Shown: piece by piece, positions 11,157 to 12,006 of the stretch | Layout: every line of letters starts with the position of its first letter | How positions within the stretch are numbered: position 1 is the first letter of the stretch | DNA from: an uncultured Odoribacter sp. | GTDB lineage: Bacteria; Bacteroidota; Bacteroidia; Bacteroidales; Marinifilaceae | Length of the DNA stretch: 12,028 nucleotides | Assembly (NCBI GenBank): GCA_947176455.1 | Contig: CAMWQQ010000029.1 | Location: 1 to 12,028, forward strand | Reading direction: 5' to 3' | Notes under the pieces: model-generated | What the model saw: only the letters and a program-made list of their open reading frames with translations | What the model was told of the DNA's origin: nothing | Databases searched by the model: none | Translations under genes and position numbers: made by a program

Positions 11157-11348
11157 TCAATCCTCAGCCATCTGCAAGCTCTGCTTGTAGATGGCCTTGA
11201 TGCGCTGTGCACGGTTGCGCACGGAAGGTTTCGTAAACGCCTGACGGTCTCTCAGCTCTTTTACGACACCGGTTTTTTCAAATTTTCTTTTGAATTTCTT
11301 CAAGGCTCTTTCAATATTCTCGCCTTCTTTTAAAGGAACAATAATCAT
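11157..11348 (-). CDS. rpsU: 30S ribosomal protein bS21
   Basis: A 63-residue bS21, a small basic protein of the 30S platform close to the 3' end of 16S rRNA. The conserved start MIIVPLKEGENIERALKKFK is followed by RKFEKTGVVKELRDRQAFTK and an Arg/Lys-rich tail. In Flavobacterium johnsoniae, bS21 with bS18 and bS6 holds the anti-Shine-Dalgarno in a pocket. From memory a conserved Tyr54 of bS21 takes part, and residue 54 here is Tyr (KAIYKQ). ATG at 11348 has no Shine-Dalgarno directly in front and an in-frame TAA lies shortly upstream, so the start cannot be extended. The gene has its own promoter and a structured leader, which points to independent control. Confidence 0.97.
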   Translation of the reverse strand: MIIVPLKEGENIERALKKFKRKFEKTGVVKELRDRQAFTKPSVRNRAQRIKAIYKQSLQMAED

Positions 11349-11530
11349 GATGTTTAAATTTTAGGTTGATTGATTCGCATATTTTATCCACTCTGAATCC
11401 TGTTCAAAGCCACGAAAAACCGCGTCGTTCTTCGTGTTCCTGTCAAATTTTACTCCTATACTCTCTCCGGAATAAAAGCACCTCCTTTCAAAGTGGATTG
11501 ATATTAATGCGTTAAACAATACAAAATTGG
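11349..11530 (-). promoter_or_regulatory. Structured rpsU leader with extended Shine-Dalgarno
   Basis: The stretch between promoter and rpsU holds no convincing gene but clear structure. GAAAGGAGGTG (11489-11479) matches the expected 3' end of Bacteroidota 16S rRNA (CACCUCCUUUC) over 11 bases, yet lies about 130 nt before the rpsU start. A 12-bp long-range stem pairs ATCCACTTTGAA (11498-11487) with TTCAGAGTGGAT (11397-11386), with one U-G wobble, so the GGAGG sits just inside the base. Inside that domain a 10-bp hairpin (11436-11411, CACGAAGAAC / GTTTTTCGTG, loop GACGCG, one G-U pair) is well formed. CCCTCC near the predicted transcript start (11534-11529) could alternatively pair with the GGAGG. 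An eight-codon frame ATG...TAA (11380-11354, MRINQPKI) ends 5 nt before rpsU. The layout suggests control of rpsU translation; the mechanism is inferred. Confidence 0.7.
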
Positions 11531-11534
11531 AGGG

Positions 11535-11570
11535 CAAAGATAAAGCAAAAAAAGAAGAAAAAGCAGCAAA
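11535..11570 (-). promoter_or_regulatory. Candidate rpsU promoter
   Basis: TATCTTTG (11542-11535) is an exact match to the Bacteroidota -7 element TAnnTTTG. The best TTTG upstream (11570-11567) is 24 nt away, slightly longer than usual, so the -33 part is weak. Transcription from here would start near 11528 and give a leader of about 180 nt for rpsU. Confidence 0.6.
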
Positions 11571-11577
11571 TCACCGG

Positions 11578-11717
11578 AAAAAATTCAGTTTATAAAGTTT
11601 GAAAGTTTATAAGGTTCATAAAGTACAAAGGCATTCTCCGGACAATCATTTGCCAAACGCCTCGCAAAAGCCCAAAACTTTATAAACTTTATGAACTTTA
11701 TGAACTTTATGAACTTT
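11578..11717 (-). repeat. Inverted arrays of a 9-bp repeat, terminator-like
   Basis: Four tandem copies of TTTATRAAC fill 11679-11714 on the plus strand. Facing them at 11588-11624 are degenerate copies of the reverse complement (GTTYATAAA): GTTTATAAA, GTTTGAAA, GTTTATAAG, GTTCATAAA. The two arrays can pair into a stem of about 35 bp with one bulge and several wobbles or mismatches, around a non-repeated loop of about 54 nt. On the minus strand the second arm is soon followed by TTTTTT (11583-11578), so the structure could end transcripts from the upstream small gene before the rpsU promoter. It is not a CRISPR: the units are tandem without spacers. Confidence 0.75.
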
Positions 11718-11724
11718 CTACTAA

Positions 11725-12006
11725 TCAAGGATTCAACAAGTCTTTGCAGTAATAGCCCAGAATCCCGTTAATCATCGTTACATAATTCCGGGCTTTCTGG
11801 TTGCCGGGATTCAAACGAAGCAACGCGTTGAATTGGTTCAACGCCCCCGCAAAATCGGCTTCCGCATAAATCAACTCGCCCAGCCGCATCAAAAGCTCCT
11901 CTTCCGCCCCCTGCTCCGCCAATTGCCGCTCAAGCAAGGCAATCGCCTCTCTCCTCCGTCCCTCCTCCACCATTTTCCGTATCTCTTGTTCCGTCATCAT
12001 AATCAT
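11725..12006 (-). CDS. Small TPR-like protein of unknown function
   Basis: A 93-residue, mostly helical protein with no signal peptide or membrane segment. Residues about 18-50 (EAIALLERQLAEQGAEEELL) and 51-85 (FAGALNQFNALLRLNPGNQK, then ARNYVTMINGIL) look like two helix pairs of the tetratricopeptide type; the NPGNQKA turn is typical. It ends GYYCKDLLNP. I recall similar short TPR proteins in Bacteroidales but know no function. Three in-frame ATGs (12006, 12000, 11997) compete; 12006 is used because GGAAGAGA lies a few bases upstream, but this is weak. The bases before it would allow an upstream frame ending in TAA at 12011-12009, too short to judge. It is followed by the inverted repeat array. 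Confidence 0.75.
   Translation of the reverse strand: MIMMTEQEIRKMVEEGRRREAIALLERQLAEQGAEEELLMRLGELIYAEADFAGALNQFNALLRLNPGNQKARNYVTMINGILGYYCKDLLNP

Follow-up and report, generated by a model that had tools for sequence, protein, structure and literature searches.

The closest described counterpart of the locus reported here is rpsU of Flavobacterium johnsoniae. According to the available text of PMC9976891, bS21 helps conceal the 16S rRNA tail in this species, and 30S subunits lacking bS21 favor rpsU via an adjacent extended Shine-Dalgarno sequence (SD); Tyr54 is the bS21 residue named, and this autoregulation is treated as a clear case of specialized bacterial ribosomes. The accessible part of PMC8710568 likewise covers the F. 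johnsoniae bS21 circuit. McNutt et al. 2023 (PMC9976891) scanned the initiation region, using positions -25 to -40 as the mock window, and in the same available text no Bacteroidales passed their criteria. In Escherichia coli, 30S subunits bind the structured leader of the tisB mRNA approximately 100 nt ahead of the start region, through a single-stranded region and an S1-binding 5' pseudoknot that precede a sequestered RBS (PMC7708055, sections available). Strong SDs that stand apart from the start codon within the 5' UTR are known from Bacillus as STAB-SDs, and the ermC, atpE, and cryIIIA leaders stabilize mRNA, a strong SD being a determinant even without a start codon (PMC3997798, sections available). 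Candidate ribosomal protein leaders, 20 in number, are listed in PMC7247131, whose main text, in the portion available, mentions neither S21 nor rpsU.

The rpsU leader of an uncultured Odoribacter sp. resembles that of F. johnsoniae, as described in the available text of PMC9976891, in the gene concerned, a long complementarity to the 16S tail, a bS21 with Tyr54, an SD near the 5' end of the leader, and a singly transcribed gene. Unlike the predicted 25-nt F. johnsoniae leader with its SD beside the ATG (PMC9976891), the SD here and in relatives lies 110 to 350 nt away, with a folded stretch between. The leader is structured, as in tisB, with a candidate 30S-binding site well upstream of the start; this candidate site is an extended SD rather than a single-stranded region with a pseudoknot (PMC7708055, sections available), and the rpsU start is not known to be sequestered. 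With STAB-SDs the leader shares a strong SD remote from the start codon, its transcription being inferred here from a promoter element, whereas the available account of STAB-SDs (PMC3997798) has no link to a ribosomal protein hiding the anti-SD. With the leaders in the accessible part of PMC7247131 it shares the character of a structured Bacteroidia ribosomal-protein leader; here, however, the 30S subunit rather than the free protein would be the probable ligand. The literature on rpsU and bS21 leaders of Bacteroidetes and Bacteroidales, mainly non-subscription papers available in part, yielded no distal SD. As judged from sequence comparison, the distal SD is conserved in the rpsU leaders of two families of Bacteroidales and occurs sporadically, as single cases, in further families.

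The window, the whole 12,028-nt stretch of Odoribacter DNA that was analyzed, carries the following elements of the rpsU locus.

11157 to 11348, minus strand: rpsU, encoding bS21 (63 aa by translation, with Tyr54; PF01165, E 5.9e-19).
11479 to 11489, minus strand: extended SD, GAAAGGAGGTG; all 11 positions complement the 16S tail read in Odoribacter G044, with a pairing energy of -19.3 kcal/mol.
11535 to 11542, minus strand: TATCTTTG, a putative -7 promoter element of the form TAnnTTTG, 52 nt 5' of the SD 13-mer.

We take TAnnTTTG to be the Bacteroidota-type -7 promoter element, and the rpsU transcript in the window is expected to start a few bases downstream of it. The preliminary description had reported the 11-base 16S match approximately 130 nt before rpsU and a start codon with no SD of its own, and both observations were confirmed: 130 nt separate GAAAGGAGGTG from the ATG (11348-11346), and within the 32 nt that precede the ATG, 16S pairing reached -1.4 kcal/mol at best vs. 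-19.3 kcal/mol at the distal site. The latter value passes the SD threshold in the available text of PMC9976891 (< -13 kcal/mol; energies are from RNAduplex here and from free_scan in that paper), with the SD of the window lying outside the initiation region that is used to recognize extended-SD autoregulation of rpsU. The window's own assembly (67.7% complete) yielded no 16S 3' end. Among 56 genomes of the family, two search patterns each matched 1/56, and the 16S tail was taken from G044 alone; since complete family genomes also lacked a match, the rRNA may be missing or withheld from the collection. The tail of G044, an Odoribacter that is also the source of leader L006, reads GGATCACCTCCTTTCTATGG and pairs with all 11 SD bases. 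We consider pairing of the distal site with 16S rRNA very probable. With either A or G allowed at its middle base, the 11-mer occurred three times in its own genome vs. four times for the reversed control; it is not rare there, and the conserved property is its place.

Rfam models at gathering score matched a tRNA as the sole hit in the window and none over the rpsU leader, while matches below that score between 11300 and 11760 were low-complexity miRNA models or one weak match. A 58-codon open frame with a TTG start and no Pfam match spans the leader (11361-11537, minus strand). Between an upstream TPR-like gene and the rpsU promoter lies an AT-rich imperfect inverted repeat with AAAGTTCATAAAG units (11591-11728), which drew low-complexity Rfam matches below threshold.

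The first reading of the leader had also placed the SD at the base of a long-range stem with a hairpin folded inside it. Both were present in the minimum-energy fold, which comprised the following helices.

11487 to 11498, minus strand: 5' arm of a 12-bp stem in the minimum-energy fold; its final three bases overlap the start of the SD (SD bases 1 to 3).
11386 to 11397, minus strand: 3' arm of the same stem in the minimum-energy fold, kept in L006.
11411 to 11436, minus strand: 10-bp hairpin inside the stem (11436-11427 with 11420-11411), all pairs kept in L006.
11448 to 11477, minus strand: local hairpin of 9 bp in the minimum-energy fold, immediately 3' of the SD (11477-11469 with 11456-11448).
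11376 to 11511, minus strand: outer 5-bp long-range helix (CGCAT at 11511-11507 with ATGCG at 11380-11376) in the minimum-energy fold.

The predicted fold was more stable than most shuffles (z -2.46; 4/200 equally stable) and had only a few pairs near the rpsU start codon. The 12-bp stem, which includes one G-U, and the 10-bp hairpin were fully kept only in L006, the leader nearest to the window by eye (85% mean column identity; 12/12 and 10/10 pairs, with one double change, in the hairpin). Covariation of the two stems, proposed as a check, gained no support: the window and L006 gave a score equaled by 243/500 shuffles, two sequences having no power, and the alignment of seven Odoribacter leaders yielded four weak consensus pairs, leading us to reject a common fold. 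In the other five Odoribacter leaders, the best stem retained 8, 8, 9, 10, and 10 of the 12 pairs, mostly at other places. An ACGCAT/ATGCGT outer helix, or a shorter form of it, could be drawn in all seven; its 5' arm is identical in 7/7 and thus uninformative on covariation. Nor did the predicted folding bring the SD close to the start codon, as had been argued, the path between them in the predicted window fold being 56 steps vs. a mean of 24 in shuffled leaders. Leaders were stabler than shuffles (z <= -1.6) in 13/23 cases in the window's family and 40/66 in the Dysgonomonadaceae. SD-to-ATG fold distance in these two sets resembled that of shuffles (on average, a fraction of 0.48 and 0.55 of the shuffles matched or undercut the leader's distance, figures that include L292 and L316 with a misplaced SD), which speaks against the geometric argument, and fold-based closeness was rejected.

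Within the window's family, whose genera include Odoribacter (g1 and g17), Butyricimonas (g3 and g4), and Marinifilum (g12), rpsU was found in 48 of the 56 genomes sampled. A distal SD was present in 23/48 leaders (g1, g3-g7, g16, and g17), including every Odoribacter and Butyricimonas leader read, at positions -111 to -197 and with pairing energies of -15.7 to -22.2 kcal/mol; the remaining 25 leaders (g2 and g8-g15) had none. Most of these 23 SDs have the form GRGG, in which either A or G at the variable base keeps the pair with the 16S tail. AUU follows the SD core by 4 to 9 nt in 19/23 (window: 11464-11482) and could be a nonstandard start or reflect shared descent. Butyricimonas-type leaders showed a predicted pairing of the sequence behind the SD with codons 1-6 of the rpsU start region; it was nearly invariant, with uncompensated breaks at some pairs in L018, and was set aside. 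In the first pairing survey, the starts of L057-L072 had been set at an inner Met, a shift of 15 nt.

Across the order, we drew 294 Bacteroidales genomes, of which 267 had rpsU, and analyzed 142 leaders among the matches listed. Combined with the 48 family leaders and searched 40 to 400 nt upstream of rpsU, these 190 leaders contained 25 sites at <= -17 kcal/mol vs. 1 on the opposite strand and 2 in the reversed sequence, and 33 at <= -15 kcal/mol vs. 5 and 7, respectively. Eight of the 142 order-wide leaders passed -15.5 (controls, 2 and 2), namely, three from Dysgonomonadaceae (L164, L254, and L272), four discarded by the promoter test described below, and L183, an ambiguous match in a leader of another family. 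As the site is missing in 25/48 family leaders and nearly all 142 order-wide leaders, it is not generally needed in Bacteroidales. An additional sample of named genomes (80 loci) placed distal SDs in the Rikenellaceae (Rikenella at -165 and Millionella at -198), in Dysgonomonas sp. HGC4 and D. alginatilytica (-167 and -168), and in three MAGs. The Millionella and Rikenella leaders (L081 and L089) carry, by eye, a pyrimidine stretch approximately 45 nt before the ATG that is complementary to the distal SD; it resembles a leader-encoded anti-SD and could pair with the SD. Assignment of another family, f98, to the Rikenellaceae was not borne out (60-69% identity to the Rikenella query), and its leaders stand outside the analysis. 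In two MAG leaders (L124 and L149) the promoter element is followed after 19 nt by a distal SD, which lies at -275 and -285, respectively.

The family f17 was identified as Dysgonomonadaceae because its leaders recur in named loci (L112 and L146 of g134, and Fermentimonas L128 of g200). Of its 81 sampled genomes, 72 had rpsU; 70 loci were taken and 69 were readable, L317 being left out of the count because a contig end lay too near rpsU. The distal SD was present in 66/69 leaders, at -147 to -350 and -16.3 to -17.6 kcal/mol. The place of the distal SD, unlike the two stems of the window, is conserved in relatives in both families, and the suggestion that an SD set apart from its gene differs in architecture from the usual adjacent SD is upheld at the level of sequence. 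Exceptions were L298 and L306, which had no SD, and L281, where the SD is adjacent. The last is the same stretch as L128 (G404, Fermentimonas, g200), in which the promoter-SD block lies 10 nt from the ATG: CAAATAGAAAGGAGGTTATTGCA, two bases, then ATG. Its genus mates L283 and L284 carry the same block at -166 and -155 (L284 counted from the SD 13-mer start), and L281/L128 represents a natural form that lacks the stretch separating SD from ATG.

We then scrutinized the relation of the SD to the promoter in loci up to L302, a survey in which L040 was absent, L065, L181, and L268 were possibly on the wrong strand, and some of the 72 distal-SD rows were one genome in two collections. In leaders without a strong SD, TAnnTTTG was found within 110 nt of the ATG in 199/215 cases. 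In the 72 distal-SD rows it lay mostly 17 to 63 nt 5' of the SD, the distance being 17 to 21 nt in most Dysgonomonadaceae, 37 nt in Rikenellaceae, and 42 to 63 nt in most Odoribacter and Butyricimonas leaders (outliers: L009, 99 nt; L287, 35 nt; L302, no element). Seven candidates (L106, L110, L111, L157, L226, L252, and L253) were rejected as distal SDs, a promoter element lying between site and ATG. In seven rows from six Butyricimonas-type genomes, TATTTTTG occurs just behind the SD in addition to the upstream element; it is absent in L015, L023, and L025. The combined pattern TTTG-N6-20-AGARRGGAGGTT matched 65 times in the 81 Dysgonomonadaceae genomes, 57 times before rpsU (56 genomes) and 8 times elsewhere, vs. 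15 matches for its reversed control. In the window's family the corresponding pattern was not specific (46 matches, 19 before rpsU; reversed control, 28).

Structures around the SD differ by lineage, and the g33 group is the one with strong covariation. In the 22 leaders of this Dysgonomonadaceae genus, a 13-pair hairpin begins a few bases behind the SD, with 96.5% of cells paired (39 to 53% if slid) and double changes in 8/13 pairs; of 500 shuffles, none scored as high in four of five measures and one did in the fifth. In other Dysgonomonadaceae genera, GAGGTT and the bases that follow can pair with a later leader segment. With the register fixed, this helix was significant against shuffles (p <= 0.05) in 21/44 leaders outside g33 and not in 23, and in 15 of the 21 the partner ends 13 to 43 nt before the ATG. 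Pair changes occur at several positions, but the partner was picked as the best match, which biases such counts toward pairing. An SD-flank duplex as a universal trait was rejected (54 leaders; mean z, -1.1 for 3' flanks and -0.7 for 5' flanks).

In these leaders an extended SD follows a putative promoter, close to where the rpsU mRNA is expected to begin, and a long, usually well-folded stretch separates it from the ATG. By analogy with F. johnsoniae, we consider it on balance probable that the leader is a sensor of bS21 status. 30S subunits without bS21 would pair with the distal SD and be kept at the head of the rpsU message; a held subunit would then move on to the A/U-rich rpsU start (standby transfer), and bS21 synthesis would climb until 30S subunits are filled. 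In Dysgonomonadaceae, where the SD or neighboring bases may lie in a helix with leader sequence, the 16S tail would partly displace that helix, and this displacement could set a threshold. Sensing of bS21 is proposed because of the F. johnsoniae circuit and the one species with the adjacent form, and standby transfer, one of three candidate routes by which the site could be coupled to rpsU, is favored because that form is positioned for initiation. Positional conservation, promoter linkage, the control counts, the g33 hairpin, and Tyr54 likewise support the sensor reading, whereas the lineage-variable structure, SD and ATG not being near in folds, and the nonspecific promoter-SD pattern in the window's family weaken it, as does the distance, SD action over more than 100 nt being unusual. 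The fit to the F. johnsoniae circuit (PMC9976891, available text) suggested in the preliminary description is supported by this conserved, promoter-linked SD. Our data suggest that the distal SD represents, at long range, the known bS21 self-regulation circuit that was reported missing from Bacteroidales. Its movement with the promoter, together with one natural form without the intervening stretch, makes this a testable long-range version, and raises the question of how far from the start codon an SD can reach in bacteria whose ribosomes normally ignore SDs.

A possible though less probable alternative is a switch that senses rRNA, in which a leader partner near the rpsU start would clamp part of the SD or its neighbor, and only a freed 16S tail would displace it and open the start. 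In g201, for example, GAGGTTATTGT can be drawn with ACAATAATCTC, ending 13 to 22 nt before the ATG. If true, such a switch would have the ribosome's RNA tail itself as its ligand and would sense incomplete ribosomes directly.

The SD could instead be a 5' stabilizer of the STAB-SD type, a reading we regard as rather unlikely. 30S subunits without bS21 bound at the SD would shield rpsU mRNA from decay, rpsU translation would be SD independent, and the circuit would run via mRNA level. The element-to-SD distance in most Dysgonomonadaceae puts the SD close to the presumed 5' terminus, an SD is missing from the rpsU start region, and the ermC, atpE, and cryIIIA leaders offer a precedent (PMC3997798, sections available). 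However, the SD is less terminal in most Odoribacter and Butyricimonas leaders, the long SD-to-ATG stretch would be superfluous, and in the species with the adjacent form this same SD is spaced for initiation, a better fit to translation.

Returning to the bases that follow the SD, we searched for mini-ORFs, defined as ATG, TTG, or GTG located 2 to 12 nt 3' of the SD and followed within five codons by a stop. They were found in 43/89 leaders vs. 13.2 expected from shuffles (Dysgonomonadaceae part, 41/66 vs. 8.9), although rows within a genus are related, so that independence is overstated. All 22 g33 leaders read ATG-N6-stop (TGA 20, TAA 1, and TAG 1), the ATG adjoining the covarying hairpin, while g134 (5/5) and g201 (7/7) have TTG-TAA. 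Such an SD might drive a very short leader ORF, whose ribosome would open the SD helix and stop, rpsU then being translated by reinitiation or from a freed start. We judge this doubtful for the leaders as a whole, given that the signal is near expectation in g200 (1/18) and in the window's family (2/23), where AUU alone is common, and that the spacing of 2 to 4 nt is shorter than the 9 to 11 nt of five adjacent rpsU SDs.

Transcription attenuation governed by a ribosome at the SD is very unlikely: some Butyricimonas leaders have, by eye, a hairpin and then a T run, but the window leader has no terminator-like site (0 found, 0.3 expected) and by eye no T run stands directly behind the covarying g33 hairpin. 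Least probable is a chance match in an ordinary structured leader without ribosome pairing, disfavored by a position conserved across genera though flanks diverge, by A/G swaps at the middle SD base that keep the 16S pair, by the 25 sites vs. 1 and 2 in controls, and by promoter linkage in Dysgonomonadaceae, even though the 11-mer and its reverse have similar genome-wide frequencies, the promoter-SD pattern of the window's family is found 46 times vs. 28 reversed, and 7/72 distal rows, with a promoter element between site and ATG, resemble chance matches. Among the loci surveyed, one genome (G277) carries two rpsU copies (L158 and L160) approximately 3 kb apart on one contig.
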